Source of the DNA: Halorubrum sodomense
GTDB taxonomy: Archaea; Halobacteriota; Halobacteria; Halobacteriales; Haloferacaceae
NCBI RefSeq assembly: GCF_900111935.1
Contig: NZ_FOYN01000001.1
Span: 852,069 to 916,068, forward strand
DNA: 64,000 nucleotides
Direction: 5' to 3'
Under the pieces are notes generated by a model, which was not told where the DNA came from, made no database searches, and worked only from the letters and a program-made list of their open reading frames with translations. This document shows positions 53,630-62,314 of the stretch, one piece after another. The position numbers and the translations under genes are program-made. Every line of letters starts with the position of its first letter. Within the stretch, counting starts at the first letter, position 1.

Positions 53630-55774
53630 TCAGTCGTCCGCCGATGCCGGCGAGTCGTCGCCCGCGGCCTCGATGTCGACCTCGATCTCGGCCGAAGCGG
53701 CCTTGTACTCGGGGATCTTCGAGCGCTCGTCGAGCACGTCGTTGGTGAGGCGGTTCGCGGAGGCGGCCGCGAAGTGCGGCGTGGTCCAGACCACGCCCTC
53801 CTTGATGTCCTCGGTGACGTCGGCGCGGACGGTGATCTCCCCGCGCCGGGACTTGAGGTTGACGTAGTCGCCGTCCTCGATCCCGTACCGCTCGGCGTCG
53901 TTCGGGTGGACGTCGACGAAGTTCTCCGGGTGCTGGTTCGAGAGCGTGGGCGAGCGGCGGCTCATCGTCCCGGTGTTGTAGTGTTCCTCGAGCCGCGCCG
54001 TGGTCAACACCAGCGGGTACTCCTCGTCGGGGACCTCCTTCGGCTCCTGGTGGACGACGCCCTCGATGCGCCCGAGGCCGTCCTCGGTCTCGAACTCGTC
54101 CTCGTAGAGGAACGGGTCGCCCTCGTCGCCCTCCTCGTAGCAGGGCCAGTGGAGCCCCGTCTCCCCGAGCGCGTCGTAGGTCATCCCGTGCATGATCGGG
54201 CACACCTCGCGCAGCTCCTCGAACACGTCCTCGGGGCCGTCGAACGCGAACTCGTCGCCGTCGAACAGGCGCGTCCCCACCTCACAGAGGATGTCGAGGT
54301 CGTGACGCGTGTTCTCGTGGACCTTGTGGACGCCGCGCATGCGCTGGACGCGGCGGTCGGTGTTGGTGACCGTGCCGTCGCGCTCGGCCCACGTCGTCGC
54401 CGGGAGGACCACGTCCGCGAGCTCGGCGGTCTCGGTCATGAAGATGTCCTGGACCACCATGAAGTCGAGCTCCTCGCGGAACCGCTTCTCGGTCTCGTTG
54501 CCGTCGGGCTCGCTCATGATCGGGTTCTCGCCCATGACGTAGAGCCCGTGGACGGTGTCGCCGATCGCGTGGGAGATCTCGACGTTCGTCAGCCCGGGCT
54601 CCGAGGGGATCTCGAACCCCCACACGTCCTCGACGGACTCGCGCGCCTCGTCGTCGTCGACGAGCTGGTACCCCGGGAGAACGTTCGGCATCGCGCCCAC
54701 GTCGCAGGTGCCCTGGACGTTGTTCTGCCCGCGCAGGGGGTTGACGCCGGTCCCCGGGCGACCGAGGTTCCCCGTGATCAGCGCGAGGTTGATCTCGTTC
54801 TGGACGTTGTCGACGCCGCAGGTGTGCTGGCTCATCCCCATCCCGGTGAAGATGGCCGCGTCGTTCGCCATCGCGTACTTCTCGGCGGCGAGCTCGATGT
54901 CCGCCAGCGGCACGCCGCACTCCTCGGCGGCCGCCTCCTTGTCGAAGTCCGCGAGCGTCTCCTTCAGGTGGTCGAACCCCTTCGTGCGCGCTTCGACGAA
55001 CGCCTCGTCGATCCAGCCCGCGTCCGGCTCTTCCTCGTGGCGCTCGAGGATCGTCTTGAGGACGATGTTCAGGAGCGGAATGTCGGTGCCGGGCTTCAGC
55101 TGGAGGTGCATGTGCCGGTCGGTGTCGTCGATCTCGAACGACCGGGTGGTCTTGTTCGCGTGCGGGTCGACCTGGATGACGGTCGCGCCCTCTAAGACGG
55201 CCTGCCGGAAGTACTGGCTGTTGGCGATCGGGTGCTGCTCGCCGGGGTTCGCGCCCTGGATCCACAGCACGTCCGCGGAGTCCTCCAGGTCGGCCATGCT
55301 GTTCGTCATCGCGCCCATCCCGAGGCTGGTGCGCAGCGCCCACACCGTCGACGCGTGACACATCCGCGTACAGTTGTCCACCTGGTTCGTGCCGTACCGG
55401 CGCGCCAGCTTCTGGATCAGGTAGTTCTCCTCGTTGAACGTCTTCGAGGAGCCGAAGAATCCCATCCCGTCCGGCCCGTGCTCCTCGCGAATTCCCTCCA
55501 TCTCGTCGACGACGCGGTCGAGCGCCTCCTCCCACGTCGCCTCGCGGAACTCGCCGCCGTCCTTGATCAGCGGCTCGGTCAGTCGGTCCTCGTGGTCGAC
55601 GACCTGCGTCGCCGCCCCGCCCTTGATGCAGACGCTCCCCTCGTTCACCGGCGCGTCGGCCCACGGCATAAAGCGCATCTCGCCCGGCTCGTCGCCCTCC
55701 AGCACGCGGATCCCGCAGCCGACGCCGCAGTACGGGCAGATCGTTTTGGTCGCGTCGTCCGGCTCACTGGACAT
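53630..55774 (-). CDS. fdhF: formate dehydrogenase alpha subunit (molybdopterin)
   Basis: A 714-residue molybdo- or tungstopterin oxidoreductase. The [4Fe-4S] ligands are Cys13, Cys16, Cys20 and Cys49 (CPYCGVGC, VCIKGG). The metal ligand is Cys139 in NCTRMCHASTV, the cysteine form of the selenocysteine position. NLGRPGTGVNPLRGQNNVQG, split at NPL, and GENPIMSEPD bind the cofactor. It oxidises formate to CO2; no electron-transfer subunits adjoin it, so it may pair with ferredoxin or a distant partner. It is divergent from a formaldehyde dehydrogenase. Confidence 0.9.
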   Translation of the reverse strand: MSSEPDDATKTICPYCGVGCGIRVLEGDEPGEMRFMPWADAPVNEGSVCIKGGAATQVVDHEDRLTEPLIKDGGEFREATWEEALDRVVDEMEGIREEHGPDGMGFFGSSKTFNEENYLIQKLARRYGTNQVDNCTRMCHASTVWALRTSLGMGAMTNSMADLEDSADVLWIQGANPGEQHPIANSQYFRQAVLEGATVIQVDPHANKTTRSFEIDDTDRHMHLQLKPGTDIPLLNIVLKTILERHEEEPDAGWIDEAFVEARTKGFDHLKETLADFDKEAAAEECGVPLADIELAAEKYAMANDAAIFTGMGMSQHTCGVDNVQNEINLALITGNLGRPGTGVNPLRGQNNVQGTCDVGAMPNVLPGYQLVDDDEARESVEDVWGFEIPSEPGLTNVEISHAIGDTVHGLYVMGENPIMSEPDGNETEKRFREELDFMVVQDIFMTETAELADVVLPATTWAERDGTVTNTDRRVQRMRGVHKVHENTRHDLDILCEVGTRLFDGDEFAFDGPEDVFEELREVCPIMHGMTYDALGETGLHWPCYEEGDEGDPFLYEDEFETEDGLGRIEGVVHQEPKEVPDEEYPLVLTTARLEEHYNTGTMSRRSPTLSNQHPENFVDVHPNDAERYGIEDGDYVNLKSRRGEITVRADVTEDIKEGVVWTTPHFAAASANRLTNDVLDERSKIPEYKAASAEIEVDIEAAGDDSPASADD

Positions 55775-55985
55775 CTGTCTCACCGCCTCCGTGCGCGTTC
55801 ATACCACACGATCGATCGTCAGCGTCCATGAGTGTATCGGTGGATTCACACGAGCGGAGCCGCGGGGAGGCTCCCGACCCCGTCTCGCAATATTTGTTAA
55901 TAGCGAAACGAACCGAGTTATTAATGGTAAAATATAATGGAAAAACATTTACTATGTGTTGTTAACACGTTACAATCGCAACAAC
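55775..55985. promoter_or_regulatory. AT-rich divergent promoter region of formate and formaldehyde dehydrogenase genes
   Basis: The 3' part is very AT-rich for this genome. AAATATAATGG (55930-55940) is the plus-strand TATA box about 46-56 bases before the ATG, so that gene has a short leader. GTTGTT (55958-55963) and AACAAC (55980-55985) form an inverted repeat directly before the ATG, a candidate operator. TATTTGTTAATAGCG near 55890-55905 may serve the minus-strand gene. Confidence 0.5.
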
Positions 55986-57155
55986 ATGAGAGCAGTTGTG
56001 TACCAAGGCCCCTACGATGTGGCCGTCGAGGAGGTAGACGAACCGGAGATAGAACACCCGAACGACGTCGTCGTCGACATCACCACGTCCTGTATCTGCG
56101 GCTCCGACCTCCACATGTACGAGGGACGGACCGCGGCCGAGGAGGGGATCATCTTCGGCCACGAGAACATGGGGATCGTCAGCGAGGTCGGCGAGGCGGT
56201 ATCGACGTTAGAGGAGGGAGACCGCGTCGTCATGCCGTTCAACGTCTCCTGCGGCTTCTGCCAGAACTGCGAGGAGGGGTACACGGGCTTCTGTACCAAC
56301 GTCAACCCCGGCTTCGCGGGCGGCGCGTACGGCTACGTCGCCATGGGGCCGTACCCCGGCGGACAGGCCGAGAAGCTGCGCGTCCCGTACGCCGACCACA
56401 ACGCCCTGAAGCTGCCCGAGGGCCGCGAGCACGAGGACGCGTTCTCGCTGCTCGCGGACATCTTCCCGACCGGCTGGCACGGCACCGAGCTGGCGAACCT
56501 CGAGTCCGGCGAGTCCGTCGCCATCTTCGGCGCGGGACCGGTCGGGCTGATGGCCGCCTACAGCGCGAAGATCAAGGGCGCGGCCGAAATTTACGTCGTC
56601 GACCAGGTGCCGAGCCGACTTGAGCTCGCGGAGGAGCACTGCGACGCCCACGCCATTGACTTCTCCGAGGGCGACCCGGTCGACCAGATCATCGAGGAGC
56701 ACGGCGGGATGGTCGACAAGGGCGTCGACGCGGTCGGTTACCAGGCGACCGATCCGGACGACGTCGACACCGAGACGGAGGACTACTCCTACCAGCCGGC
56801 CAAGGAGAACCCGGCGGTCGTGATCAACAACCTGATCCGGGTGGTCCGGCCGACCGGCGAGCTCGGCATCCCCGGCCTGTACGTCCCCGAGGACCCGGGC
56901 GCACCCGACGACATGGCCGCACAGGGCCGCCTCGGCATCGACTTCGGGAAGTTCTTCGAGAAGGGGCTCAAGTGCGGCACCGGCCAGTGTAACGTCAAGG
57001 AGTACAACCGGTACCTGCGCGACATGATCATCGAGGGGCGCGCGGACCCGAGCTGGGTCGTCTCCCACCGGGTCGACCTCGAGGAGGCCCCCGAGATGTA
57101 CGAGGCGTTCGACGCCCGCGAGGAGGGCGTCACGAAGGTCCTGTTAGAGCCTTGA
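55986..57155 (+). CDS. fdhA: glutathione-independent formaldehyde dehydrogenase
   Basis: A 389-residue zinc-dependent medium-chain dehydrogenase. The catalytic zinc site has Cys in TTSCICGSDLHMYEG and the GHENMG His-Glu pair; four structural-zinc cysteines lie in SCGFCQNCEEGYTGFC. The NAD-binding motif is IFGAGPVGLMAA. The long insert (ETEDYSYQPAKENPAVVIN) is typical of the Pseudomonas-type enzyme that oxidises formaldehyde to formate with tightly bound NAD. It stands opposite a formate dehydrogenase, which would complete the oxidation to CO2. Confidence 0.92.
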   Translation: MRAVVYQGPYDVAVEEVDEPEIEHPNDVVVDITTSCICGSDLHMYEGRTAAEEGIIFGHENMGIVSEVGEAVSTLEEGDRVVMPFNVSCGFCQNCEEGYTGFCTNVNPGFAGGAYGYVAMGPYPGGQAEKLRVPYADHNALKLPEGREHEDAFSLLADIFPTGWHGTELANLESGESVAIFGAGPVGLMAAYSAKIKGAAEIYVVDQVPSRLELAEEHCDAHAIDFSEGDPVDQIIEEHGGMVDKGVDAVGYQATDPDDVDTETEDYSYQPAKENPAVVINNLIRVVRPTGELGIPGLYVPEDPGAPDDMAAQGRLGIDFGKFFEKGLKCGTGQCNVKEYNRYLRDMIIEGRADPSWVVSHRVDLEEAPEMYEAFDAREEGVTKVLLEP

Positions 57156-57489: not shown

Positions 57490-57669
57490 ATGTCATTCCG
57501 GCGCGTGGTCACGCCCATGTGTAAGTACTGCAACTGGGCCTTCCACGACGGGTGGGGGGAGCTGCTGAAGTACGACGAGACGTACCAGTCGGCGGTCGGC
57601 GCGGAGACGGAGTCGACCCACGGCTTCCACGACGAGTGGGACGACCTCCGGAGCGAGCTGGGGATCTAG
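57490..57669 (+). CDS. small CxxC protein
   Basis: A 59-residue protein containing [20 protein letters not shown] and a C-terminal [17 protein letters not shown]. One CxxC and three His could hold a metal. A second ATG at 57517 would begin exactly at the MCKYC segment and is an equally good start. It is divergent from the zinc-finger gene and overlaps the stop of the CobW gene on the other strand by four bases. Confidence 0.55.
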
Positions 57670-58790
57670 ATCGGGAACACCGCGTCCGGGTCCGCCGTCG
57701 TCTCGGCGTCGCCCGCGACGAGTCCGGCCAGCTCCTCGCGGATCCCCGACTCGTCGAGGTCCTCGCCGATGAACACCAGCCGCGTCCGGCGGTCGTCGTC
57801 GGACCCCCACTCGCCGATCGGTCCGGCCTGGACCGACGGGCCGGCCTGGCTCACGCCGATCACCTCGTCGGTGCCCGCCACCCGGACCACGCCCTTCGCG
57901 CGGACGATCGACCCGTCCCAGTCGTCGAGCCACGCCGCGAGCGCCTCCGGGTCGAGCGGCTCGCTCGACCGGTAGACGAACGAGCCGACGCCGTGCGCGG
58001 CGGCCGCGCCCTCCGGATGCGCGTGGTCGTGGCCCTCTCCGCCGTCGTGGTCGTGACCGCTCGCCTCCTCGTCGGCGATGGCGCGCTTCCACCCCGCCGA
58101 CCCCTTCGCCGACTCGAAGTCGAACCGGCCGGTGTCGAGCACCTCGCCGGGGTCGACCGCGGAGTAGGTGGTCCGGATCCGCTTCGCCCTCGGGCCCAGC
58201 CGCTCCGCGACCGCCTCGATCCGGTCGAGCACGTCGTCGGGCACCATGTCGGTCTTGTTCACCAGGAGGACGTCGCAGAACTCGATCCCCTCGACGAGCA
58301 CGTCCGCGAGCGGGCGGTCCGTCTCCGGCTCCGCCCCGCCGGGGAGGCTCTCGCCCGCGTCGAACTCCTTCCAGAAGCCGTAGGCGTCGAGGACGGTCAC
58401 CATCGTGTCCAGCCGGAACCGCTCGCGGGGGTCGACGTCGCTGTCCTCGGTCCCCTCGGTGAACGCCCGGGCGATCGGCACCGGCTCCGAGATGCCCGAC
58501 GACTCGACGAGGAGGTAGTCGAACTCGCGCGACTCCGCGAGCGCCGCGGCCTCGCTCAGCAGGTCGTCCTGGAGCCGACAGCAGATACAGCCGTTCGAGA
58601 GGTCCACGACGCCCTCCTCGTCGTTCTCGCGGGCGATCTTCTCGGCGTCGACGTTCACCTCGCCCATGTCGTTCAGGATGACGGCGATCCGTCTGTCGCC
58701 CGGGTTCGAGAGCAGGTGGTTCACGAGCGTCGTCTTCCCGGCGCCGAGGTAGCCGCTGAGGACGGTGACCGGGATCCGGTCGTCTGACAT
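57666..58790 (-). CDS. CobW/ZNG1-type metallochaperone GTPase
   Basis: A 374-residue G3E GTPase. The P-loop is GYLGAGKT (13-20); the metal-binding motif GCICC (Cys68, Cys70, Cys71) sits in the switch region; base recognition uses VNKTD. A His/Asp-rich loop ([18 protein letters not shown]) precedes the C-terminal CobW_C domain. Such proteins deliver zinc or cobalt to client enzymes. Neighbouring zinc enzymes (formaldehyde dehydrogenase) are possible clients, but that is speculative. The ATG at 58790 gives the standard N-terminus. Confidence 0.9.
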
Positions 58791-58880
58791 GTGTGGTGTC
58801 AATGCCCACACCGATATGAAACGATCGATCGGGATGATTGGCACGAACGTTCATCCGTCTCACCGACGTACCACGAGGCG

Positions 58881-59507
58881 ATGGACCTGAGCGAATCGAC
58901 CGTCCGGGACCGCGCCCGGACGTACGCGGAGCGGGAGCCGTTATACGACGTGGAGCGACAGCACGTCGAGACGGTCCCGGAGACGTTCGCCGGCGACGAG
59001 TACGGCCGCCGGGACGCCCAGTGGATCGTCCGGTGGTACTTCCGGCGCTACCTCGGCGAGTACCCCGACCGCGAGCGGCGCGAGCGGGAGGAGGCGTTCC
59101 GCGACAACGACTTCGGCGACGTGATCGACGCCATCGACGCCGCCGTCGACGCGCTCGGTGTCGGGGAGAACGAGGGGGCCGACGCGGCGGAGAGGGGCGA
59201 CGCGGCGGAGGCAGACGCCGCCCTCGACGCGCTCACCGCGCTCGACGGGGTCGACGTCGCGGTCGCGTCGGGGTTCTGCCAGTTCCTCGCCCCCGAGCGG
59301 TTCGTCGCGGTCGACCGCCGGACGTGGGCGGTGCTCGCCGCGGCGGGCGAGCTCGACGCCTCCTACCCGGAGCCGCCGTCGGCCGCCGACTACCGGCGGT
59401 TCGACGACGCCTGCCGGGCCGTGATGGAACGCACGGGCGTCGACGCGTGGACGCTGTACCGGGCGCTGTGGGTGTCGTACGAGCAGTTGCCTGACGCGGA
59501 CGCGTGA
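58881..59507 (+). CDS. haloarchaeal protein with a helix-hairpin-helix-like segment
   Basis: A 208-residue acidic helical protein. The stretch VASGFCQFLAPERFVAVDRR resembles the helix-hairpin-helix region of DNA glycosylase-like proteins (a VAS helix, then a conserved Asp-Arg-Arg), but the glycosylase lysine is not apparent. A variable acidic loop (ENEGADAAERGDAAEADAA) divides the chain. It is divergent from the CobW gene; function unknown. Confidence 0.65.
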   Translation: MDLSESTVRDRARTYAEREPLYDVERQHVETVPETFAGDEYGRRDAQWIVRWYFRRYLGEYPDRERREREEAFRDNDFGDVIDAIDAAVDALGVGENEGADAAERGDAAEADAALDALTALDGVDVAVASGFCQFLAPERFVAVDRRTWAVLAAAGELDASYPEPPSAADYRRFDDACRAVMERTGVDAWTLYRALWVSYEQLPDADA

Positions 59508-59538: not shown

Positions 59539-60270
59539 TCACTCCACGACCTCGACGACCGGGTCGTCGGAGACGAGCCGCGTGAGGACGACGCGCGGCA
59601 CGTTCGCGCGGTAGAGAATTTCGCGGGCGACCGCCCGGGCCGCGGTCGCGTCCGCCTCGTCGTCGACCTTGTTCACGACCGGGATCGCGGTCGCGTCGCC
59701 GGGGACGTCCTTCAGCCCGCCGGCGGGACTCGCGAGGACCGTCGCCACGTCGGCGGGGGTGAGCTCGTCGCCGATCTCCCGGCCGGTGATCGCGGCGACC
59801 GCCTCCGGCCGGTGGACGCGCTCCTCGGTGAGCGGCTCCCCGACGACGTGCGCGCTCGCGATCGGCACGATGACGTCCGCGTTCCGCGGGATCTGCGGCT
59901 CGCGCTCGCTCGGCGCCTTGAACTCCCGGAGGCGCGCCCCGTCCGCCTTCACGAGCGTCGCGCCCGGCTCGGCGTCGGCGATATCGGCGACTACGTCCAC
60001 GTCGTACCCGAGGTACCGGTCCGACCGGTCGCGCTCGGGGACGAGCCCGAGCGGCCAGTCGCCGGCGTCGGCGTCCTCGATCGCTCCTATCGGGTCCTCG
60101 GTCACGCGCACCGTCGCGACCCGGTCGTCGAAGATCGGTATCCGGACGCTCGCCGTCACCACCGACCGGTCGAGTCGGTCCGCGAGCGCGAACAGCGTCG
60201 ACTTCTTGCCGCCCGCGCCGACGACGCAGAGGGTCGCGTCGCGGGCGTCGAGCGCGGTCGTCAAGTCCAT
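59539..60270 (-). CDS. yqeC: YqeC-like putative molybdenum-cofactor accessory protein
   Basis: A 243-residue protein. The N-terminus has a P-loop-like VVGAGGKKSTLFALA; LVKADGARLREFKAPSEREP and IPVVNKVDDEADA are YqeC hallmarks. YqeC is associated with selenium-dependent molybdenum hydroxylases in bacteria. No such hydroxylase is here; it is divergently arranged, 139 bases apart, with an AOR homologue, which suggests service to a pterin enzyme. Confidence 0.82.
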   Translation of the reverse strand: MDLTTALDARDATLCVVGAGGKKSTLFALADRLDRSVVTASVRIPIFDDRVATVRVTEDPIGAIEDADAGDWPLGLVPERDRSDRYLGYDVDVVADIADAEPGATLVKADGARLREFKAPSEREPQIPRNADVIVPIASAHVVGEPLTEERVHRPEAVAAITGREIGDELTPADVATVLASPAGGLKDVPGDATAIPVVNKVDDEADATAARAVAREILYRANVPRVVLTRLVSDDPVVEVVE

Positions 60271-60409
60271 GCCGCCGCGTTCGGGCGCCGCGTCCCTCAC
60301 TCTGGCGGTCGGTGACGCGCTCCGCGGGCCTAACTGCGCTCGGAGCCGACGCGGGGGCCGACCCCCCCGGCGAACAGATTGATACGTCCTCGCCGCGCAG
60401 GGCCTCCAA

Positions 60410-62314
60410 ATGAGTCGCCGCCGCACCCACGTCCTCCGCGTCGACCTCTCGGCGGGCGAGACGGCCCGCGAGCGCGTCCCGCGGGACCGGCGGCGCGACT
60501 ACGTCGGCGGGAAGGGGATCGGGGCGCGCTACCTCTACGAGGAGCTGCCGCCGGGGACGGAGCCGACGGGTCCGGAGAATCTCCTCTGCTTCCTCGTCGG
60601 CCCGCTCGCGGGCTACCTCCCGGGCGAGACGCGCTACGCCGCGGTGACCAAGTCGCCGCTCACCGGCGGCTTCCTCGACTCGTACGCGGGCGGCGAGTTC
60701 GCCGACCGCCTCGCGGGGTCGCTGGACGACTGCCTCGGGCTGCTCGTGACGGGCGCGGCCGACCGACCGGTCCGGATCGAGGTCGAGGACGGCCGCGCCC
60801 GGATCGAGGCGAGCGACGCCTGGGGCGACGACGCCGCCGAGACGGCCGAACGGTTCCCGGCCGCCGGCGTCGCCTGCGTCGGCCCGGCGGGCGAGCGCGA
60901 GGCGGCCTACGCGACGGTCGCGAGCGACGGCGGCGCCCACCACGCGGGCCGCGGCGGCGCCGGCGCCGTGATGGGGTCGAAGCGGCTGAAGGCGGTCGTC
61001 GCCCGCGACCCCCCGCCGAGCGTCCCGGACGACCTCGCCGCGCTCCGCGACCGCGACGCGGCGGCCTACGGCCGCGACCCGACCGGCGAGTGGCAGGCGG
61101 CCGGCGAAACGGTCGAGACGGTCGATTACGCCAACGAGGTCGGGATCCTCGCTGCGGAGGGGTGGACGGGGACCGGCTTCGACGGCGCCGACGACATCGG
61201 CGTCGAGGCCGCGCTGGAGCGCGCGACGGGGCGCGAAGAAGTTACCGACGCCGGCCAAGGCGAGGACCCCGCCGTCCCCGGCGGCTTCCGGATCGACACC
61301 CCGGACGGCGAGGTGGTCCCGCGCGGCGCGGCCCCGATCACGCTCGGCGCGGGCCTCGGCGTCGACGACTTCGACCGCGTCGTCGAGCTCTGCGGGGTCT
61401 GCGACCGGCTCGGCCTCGACGTGATCGGCGCGGGCAACGCGGTCGCGTGGGCGGTCCGCGCCGGGGAAGCCGGTGTCGTCGACTGCCCGGTCTCGTTCGG
61501 CGACGCCGACGGGGCAGAGCGCCTGTTAGCGGCGATCGCGGCCCGCGAGGCGCCGCCCGACCTCGACGTCCACCCGGATCTGCCGGACGCGCTCGCCGAC
61601 GGGATCGACGCCGCGGTCGAGCGGTTCGGCGGCGAGGCGCTCGTGCCCACGGTGAAGTCGATGGCGCTGCCCGGCTTCGACCCCCGCGCGGCGGTCGGGG
61701 TCGCGCTCGCGTACGCGACGAGCGACCGCGGCGCGTGTCACAGACGCGCGCGGCCGCAGGACAGCGAGCCGCTCGCCCGGCCCGACCGGTCTCCGACCGA
61801 CCGGGTGCGGGACGTGGTCGGCGAGCAGAACGCGCGCTCCGTGCTGTGGAGCCTCGTCGTCGACGACTTCGTCGGCGAGGCGGTCTGGGACGACCTCGGC
61901 GCGGAGTGGCTCGCGGCGGTCGACCACCCCGCGGTGACGGACCGCGACGGCGACGCGCCGGAGCGCGGCGACCGCGCCGAGGACCGCTCGGACCCGGTCG
62001 CCGCGCTCGCGACGACCGGCGAACGGATCTGGACGCTCACCCGGCTGTTCAACGCCCGCGAGGGGTTCGACCGCGACGACGACGCGCTCCCGGAGCCGCT
62101 CCGCACGGCCGCGGCGGACGGGACGCCGGGGGTCGACGTCGACGCGTTCGACCGCCTGCTGGACCGCTACTACGCGGCCCGGGAGTGGGGCGACCGCGGC
62201 CTCCCGACGCCGGCGGCGCTCGACCGCCTGGGCCTCGCGGAGGTCGTCGACGACGCGACCCCGCTGGACGAGCGCCCGATCGACCTCGCCGAGGCAACGG
62301 ATTCGGACGACTGA
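60410..62314 (+). CDS. aldehyde ferredoxin oxidoreductase homologue without iron-sulfur ligands
   Basis: A 634-residue protein of the AOR family. The N-terminal domain binds the tungstopterin: YVGGKGIGARYLYEELPPG and SPLTGGFLDSYAGG. LCGVCDRLGLDVIGAGNAVA and LAYATSDRGACH are conserved helices of domains 2 and 3. However, the CxxCxxxC that should precede this region, and the fourth Cys near the C-terminus, are absent: where the cluster motif should be there is only an Asp/Gly-rich segment near 280-300. The enzyme may hold the pterin but lack the [4Fe-4S] cluster, so electron transfer must differ or be lost. Confidence 0.86.
   Translation: MSRRRTHVLRVDLSAGETARERVPRDRRRDYVGGKGIGARYLYEELPPGTEPTGPENLLCFLVGPLAGYLPGETRYAAVTKSPLTGGFLDSYAGGEFADRLAGSLDDCLGLLVTGAADRPVRIEVEDGRARIEASDAWGDDAAETAERFPAAGVACVGPAGEREAAYATVASDGGAHHAGRGGAGAVMGSKRLKAVVARDPPPSVPDDLAALRDRDAAAYGRDPTGEWQAAGETVETVDYANEVGILAAEGWTGTGFDGADDIGVEAALERATGREEVTDAGQGEDPAVPGGFRIDTPDGEVVPRGAAPITLGAGLGVDDFDRVVELCGVCDRLGLDVIGAGNAVAWAVRAGEAGVVDCPVSFGDADGAERLLAAIAAREAPPDLDVHPDLPDALADGIDAAVERFGGEALVPTVKSMALPGFDPRAAVGVALAYATSDRGACHRRARPQDSEPLARPDRSPTDRVRDVVGEQNARSVLWSLVVDDFVGEAVWDDLGAEWLAAVDHPAVTDRDGDAPERGDRAEDRSDPVAALATTGERIWTLTRLFNAREGFDRDDDALPEPLRTAAADGTPGVDVDAFDRLLDRYYAAREWGDRGLPTPAALDRLGLAEVVDDATPLDERPIDLAEATDSDD

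Follow-up and report, generated by a model that had tools for sequence, protein, structure and literature searches.

A haloarchaeal AOR-fold protein without [4Fe-4S] ligands accompanies YqeC and formate dehydrogenase and may serve in cofactor maturation without FdhD

What can a protein with the AOR fold do once the residues that hold its iron-sulfur cluster are gone, and what does its pairing with YqeC mean? This question is raised by the window, a stretch of 64,000 nucleotides from Halorubrum sodomense, in which the gene for a 634-aa AOR-fold protein without [4Fe-4S] ligands (60410-62314, forward strand; hereafter the cluster-less AOR) lies divergently from the gene for a 243-aa YqeC of the formate dehydrogenase (FDH) type (59539-60270, reverse strand). 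The intergenic region between them (60271-60409) measures 139 bp, exactly as first described. The protein matches both Pfam domains of the AOR/WOR enzymes (WorL), with 198 bits for AFOR_N (cut-off 29.8) and 222 bits for AFOR_C (cut-off 27), and its AF2 model (pLDDT 92) has the predicted AOR fold. The closest solved structures are AOR and FOR proteins, with TM-scores of 0.86/0.89 to 1b25 and 0.83/0.87 to 1aor; 9mqx was also matched, the range over 1b25, 9mqx and 1aor being 0.83-0.86. Homologues, collected by searching 59 related genomes and scanning genomes of GTDB, span the Halobacteria (Halorubrum, Haloferax, Haloarcula, Natrinema, Natronococcus, Haladaptatus, Halorussus, Halobellus and others).

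Residues were counted in 78 full-length haloarchaeal cluster-less AORs, the window protein included. In the alignment, CxxCxxxC is absent from the window protein and from all 77 homologues, and the four-Cys [4Fe-4S] ligand set of AOR/WOR (WorL) is found in none of the 78. By alignment with cluster-bearing paralogues, the site of the lost loop (codons 275-305, 61232-61324, forward strand) is now occupied by an insert of variable sequence, 19 to 66 residues long, in which the otherwise confident AF2 model drops below a pLDDT of 50 (positions 280-284). The fourth ligand, Cys494 in Pf AOR and Cys in the cluster-bearing paralogues, is replaced by Asp485 (codon 485, 61862-61864, forward strand) in 78 of 78 sequences. 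In the first search, the AOR match was broken at the position of the lost loop in G019:C1:1890243-1892174, G011:C19 and G026:C66, which suggests a long insert there. Alignment revealed no cysteines relocated to other positions: the conserved ones are C156, C331 and C443 alone, of which C331 and C443 are shared with cluster-bearing AORs, and nine of the 78 proteins contain no more than three Cys in total. With the conserved cysteines limited to these three positions, Cys ligands elsewhere and substitute ligands were ruled out.

The original prediction, that both CxxCxxxC and the fourth Cys are missing, is therefore valid for the whole family, but its statement that all tungstopterin motifs are visible stands only in part, as the N-terminal pterin residues, DxxGLD, Thr243 and His448 are present, and Glu313 and the second DxxGLC motif are not. 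R75, TKSPLTG and GRGGxGAVMGSK are kept, together with T234 (Thr243, 78/78), DxxGLD (332-337, with D337 in 78/78) and H444 (His448, 78/78). The position of Tyr427 holds Tyr in 72 sequences and Phe in six, among them the window protein, so that the cluster-less AOR resembles AOR/WOR at Thr243, Tyr427 and His448. Where P. furiosus AOR has its catalytic Glu313, the window protein has Ala (codon 307, 61328-61330, forward strand) and all 78 have Ala, Gly or Ser, in a place where close cluster-bearing paralogues have EYE; the residue expected of aldehyde-oxidising AOR/WOR members is thus lacking. The second pterin motif, DxxGLC, is changed to WSLVVDDF, Asp489 being Trp in 78 of 78. Judging from sequence, the retained T243, Y/F427 and H448 leave catalysis possible.

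In the phylogeny, all cluster-less proteins fall into a single group (SH-aLRT 100), indicating that the cluster was lost once. The nearest relatives come from Halorubrum (L079, L080, L216-L219), Methanoculleus (L168) and a member of the phylum outside Halobacteria (L215). Within a 295-genome sample of the phylum, no cluster-less form was found outside Halobacteria at E<1e-130, and the sole match there at that threshold (G345) has the cluster. Chance or strain-specific loss is ruled out by the 78 of 78 members and the one origin, and cluster loss is, on this comparison, an old, fixed trait of a conserved family rather than the decay of one copy. A 2026 classification of the family reports that pterin- and [4Fe-4S]-coordinating residues vary very little, and that Glu313 is nearly unvarying among aldehyde-oxidising members (PMC13328260). 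In the open-licence literature we found no paper on the cluster-less clade or on a link between YqeC and FDH, though an earlier mention is possible.

YqeC is regarded as a marker of selenium-dependent hydroxylases, alongside SelD and YqeB. The window protein belongs to this family, as it reaches the equivalog level of TIGR03172 (165.5 bits, cut-off 73) and scores 94 bits against PF19842. Its AF2 model (pLDDT 96) has a distant SIMIBI P-loop likeness to SRP54, MeaB and MinD (TM about 0.4); some members of the SIMIBI class are cofactor-loading NTPases. SelD and YqeB, the SDMH accessory proteins, are both absent from the window genome, which rules out a selenium hydroxylase context for its YqeC. 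Among the 59 genomes, true SelD and YqeB occur in G038 and G053 only, with a distant YqeC in the same cluster, in agreement with the suggestion made at the outset that YqeC has a role outside the selenium hydroxylases. In G053, it is a second, different YqeC that adjoins SelD/YqeB. FDH-type YqeC has a Cys (Cys15) directly ahead of GxGGKK in at least 95% of 44 sequences, where SelD-linked YqeC has Ala or Ser, and this residue could carry sulfur. Moreover, a MocA-like nucleotidyltransferase adjoins the SelD-linked YqeC of G053 and MobA adjoins FDH-type YqeC in many loci, so that in both settings YqeC accompanies a pterin nucleotide-adding enzyme. The selenium-hydroxylase cluster of G053 (L179:1642-10001) encodes the MocA-like protein, YqeC, a TusA-like protein, SelD and a fused XdhC/YqeB-like protein, as well as DsrE/F/H-like proteins and a large hydroxylase-like subunit.

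The company of the pair includes FDH. At 4.6 kb from the start of the cluster-less AOR gene, the window encodes a Cys-type FDH alpha subunit (FdhA, 717 aa; 53630-55783, reverse strand; TIGR01591, 728 bits, cut-off 666), which clusters and co-occurs with the pair of YqeC and cluster-less AOR. Other genes of the window are those for a zinc-dependent dehydrogenase, kin of glutathione-independent formaldehyde dehydrogenase (55956-57155, forward strand; TIGR02819, 333 bits, under the equivalog cut-off of 637; 9/80 loci), a CobW/ZigA-like GTPase (57666-58844, reverse strand; PF02492 and PF07683; 8/80 loci), and an uncharacterised protein without a Pfam or NCBIfam match (58881-59507, forward strand, likely start 58881), found adjoining FdhA in 13/80 loci. 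Homologues of the latter adjoin the 717-aa FdhA in many of the loci having that FdhA (L061, L069, L089, L131, L144, L154 and L177), and one of them gives a weak, sub-threshold match to PF21790 (8-oxoguanine glycosylase-like).

Within about 9 kb of 79 cluster-less AOR homologues, YqeC was found at 43 loci, an FDH with high identity at 28 and MobA at 23. An HdrA/FlpD-like cluster is present at 27 of the 79 loci, mostly with a TorD-like chaperone and a Tat-exported FDH-like protein. Overall, three kinds of FDH recur near the cluster-less AOR, namely the 717-aa FdhA, a NuoG-fused FdhA with NuoF, and the Tat-exported FDH-like protein; near FDH, formate-THF ligase was also found at six loci and the formaldehyde-dehydrogenase-like gene at nine. 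The Tat-exported protein, at about 1100 aa, contains a long low-complexity insert and reaches only 417 bits against TIGR01591; L065, L067 and L169-L172 are examples of loci where it recurs with the HdrA/FlpD-like protein, which has multiple ferredoxin domains, and with a chaperone of the TorD/NarJ type. In addition, a haloarchaeal DUF7124 protein (PF23439) with a long acidic N-terminus is encoded 3' of the cluster-less AOR gene in 30/80 loci (e.g., L065:8213-8923 and L067:7227-8012, both on the reverse strand), and may represent a further partner.

Co-occurrence was analyzed across 52 haloarchaeal genera, represented by 126 genomes with a completeness of at least 95%. The cluster-less AOR is present in 71 of them, and all 71 carry FDH-type YqeC, as the original prediction would have it; YqeC alone occurs in 16 more, and none of the 126 has the cluster-less AOR without YqeC (Fisher p 5e-20; at genus level 31/31, p 3e-10, with phylogeny handled by genus collapse only). 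In each of the nine genera variable for the cluster-less AOR, at least one species pair switches both genes together. An FDH above the TIGR01591 cut-off was detected in 67 of the 71 carriers, and in the remaining four the Tat-exported FDH-like gene adjoins the cluster-less AOR; likewise, 82 of the 87 genomes having YqeC have FDH. The assimilatory nitrate reductase NasA, taken as a control bis-MGD enzyme, showed no association with the cluster-less AOR (p 0.72) or with YqeC (p 0.25), and a general tie to any Mo-bis-MGD enzyme is therefore not supported. Nevertheless, 15 genomes have FDH and YqeC and lack the cluster-less AOR, which indicates that the latter is auxiliary rather than indispensable.

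E. coli needs FdhD to sulfurate the cofactor of FDH, as a 2023 review sets out (PMC10609526), and a tungsten-dependent FDH in Methylorubrum depends on FdhD as well (PMC13197769). The 2023 review posed the maturation of halobacterial FDH without FdhD as an open question (PMC10609526). Our searches of haloarchaeal genomes gave no FdhD in 59 genomes with TIGR00129 and none in 126 with PF02634. Searched in the same way, 8 of 14 control genomes have FdhD, three archaea included. Neither the cluster-less AOR nor YqeC matches the FdhD models of Pfam and NCBIfam. The absence of FdhD, together with the FdhA gene at 53630-55783, is the strongest clue to the function of this locus, and both had been left out of the original prediction. 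As FdhD is missing from these organisms, YqeC and the cluster-less AOR may be part of the missing FDH activation machinery. Eight FDH-positive genomes, however, have neither FdhD nor FDH-type YqeC (G064, G073, G082, G083, G126, G039, G112 and G038 (L178)), so that another maturation route must exist for those FDHs.

Based on these results, we see an even chance that the cluster-less AOR is a redox-dead AOR-fold protein that acts with YqeC and MobA to assemble, sulfurate or deliver the Mo/W-bis-pterin cofactor for FDH. What the data establish is the cluster loss with its one origin, together with the association of the gene with YqeC, FDH and MobA in genomes and loci; cofactor binding, the part played in maturation and the sequence of steps are inferred. 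The protein would have retained the Mo/W-bis-pterin pocket and lost the passing of electrons, and would hold a bis-pterin intermediate while MobA attaches GMP; the NTPase-like YqeC would drive a handling or terminal-ligand step of the cofactor; and in Halobacteria YqeC and MobA, with the cluster-less AOR in most species, would replace FdhD. The presence of one and the same protein beside three FDH types that differ in their electron acceptors suggests a role before electron transfer. We hold more tentatively the full form of this proposal, an FdhD-independent halobacterial route with YqeC as the NTPase for handling or sulfurating the Mo/W-bis-pterin alongside MobA, and with the AOR fold devoid of cluster and Glu313 as scaffold; YqeC would then be a general factor for the Mo/W terminal ligand or for cofactor handling, and not a selenium factor. 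Of the two functions envisaged in the original prediction, the cofactor carrier is the one that best fits the neighbours FDH, MobA and YqeC, whereas the new electron path finds neither substitute ligands nor a conserved redox partner, in a protein whose Glu313 is gone and whose FDH partners differ in their acceptors.

It is also possible, but in our view unlikely, that the cluster-less AOR is an active Mo/W-bis-pterin enzyme without an Fe-S relay, working in formaldehyde or formate metabolism beside FDH, either through a non-redox or self-contained reaction (e.g., aldehyde dismutation or hydration) or by direct transfer to a diffusible carrier. In its favour, T243 and H448 are retained, as is Y427 in most sequences, and some FDH clusters include the formaldehyde-dehydrogenase-like gene and formate-THF ligase. 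Nevertheless, Glu313, which varies very little in aldehyde-oxidising members (PMC13328260), is lost in 78 of 78, a conserved electron partner was not found, and the company of three FDH types with different acceptors and of the cofactor genes for MobA and YqeC does not describe one pathway.

A further alternative would be a store or sensor that buffers the W/Mo-bis-pterin during FDH production, with no direct role in insertion. This would account for the retained pocket, the lost cluster and the scattered loss of the gene in genomes keeping FDH and YqeC; still, we find it doubtful, and decidedly more so than an active enzyme, given that close linkage of the gene to those for YqeC and MobA points to an assembly step and that Pfam reveals no regulatory domain in the cluster-less AOR. 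Least probable by far is an Fe-S cluster still bound through other ligands, namely Asp485 and residues elsewhere. Asp can serve as a cluster ligand in other proteins, but here a variable stretch modelled with low confidence stands in for the whole CxxCxxxC loop, conservation of Cys is confined to three positions, and nine of 78 proteins have at most three Cys.

Returning to maturation as the preferred reading, the data single out three candidates for FDH maturation without FdhD, yqeC, mobA and the cluster-less AOR gene, with their exact phyletic patterns, and all three genes are carried by Haloferax gibbonsii, Hfx. massiliensis and Hfx. marisrubri (L130, L137 and L123), in which knockouts can address the question. 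YqeC becomes detached from selenium, in agreement with the deletion of yqeC in C. difficile, which gave no obvious selenium phenotype (PMC11448449). Moreover, the cluster-less AOR would exemplify how the fold of a tungsten enzyme can be converted to the handling of a cofactor. Its sequence makes it one variant within a known family; should it indeed act in maturation, the system as a whole would represent a new kind of FDH maturation.

Compared with known systems, the module of YqeC and cluster-less AOR would take the same place in the pathway as the sulfurtransferase-chaperone FdhD/FdsC, where the cofactor of FDH is sulfurated or delivered, albeit with proteins that share no homology with it and whose maturation function is putative. 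FDH-type and SelD-linked YqeC belong to the same family (TIGR03172) and share the GxGGKK, KADGAR and VHR motifs, but FDH-type YqeC has approximately 40% identity to the SelD-linked haloarchaeal form, carries Cys15, is linked to FDH and lacks SelD/YqeB. The cluster-bearing paralogues (L079, L080, L216-L219, L168 and L215) are 39-45% identical to the cluster-less AOR where measured and, unlike it, have CxxCPxxC, the fourth Cys and EYE (Glu313). Finally, with the AOR/WOR enzymes (WorL; PfAOR 1aor, PfFOR 1b25, HvWOR83 9q1t) the cluster-less AOR has in common both Pfam domains, most pterin-pocket residues, His448 and, as predicted, the full AOR/FOR fold (TM 0.83-0.89); it differs from them in being without the [4Fe-4S] ligands, Glu313 and the second DxxGLC, and in having FDH, YqeC and MobA as its partners.
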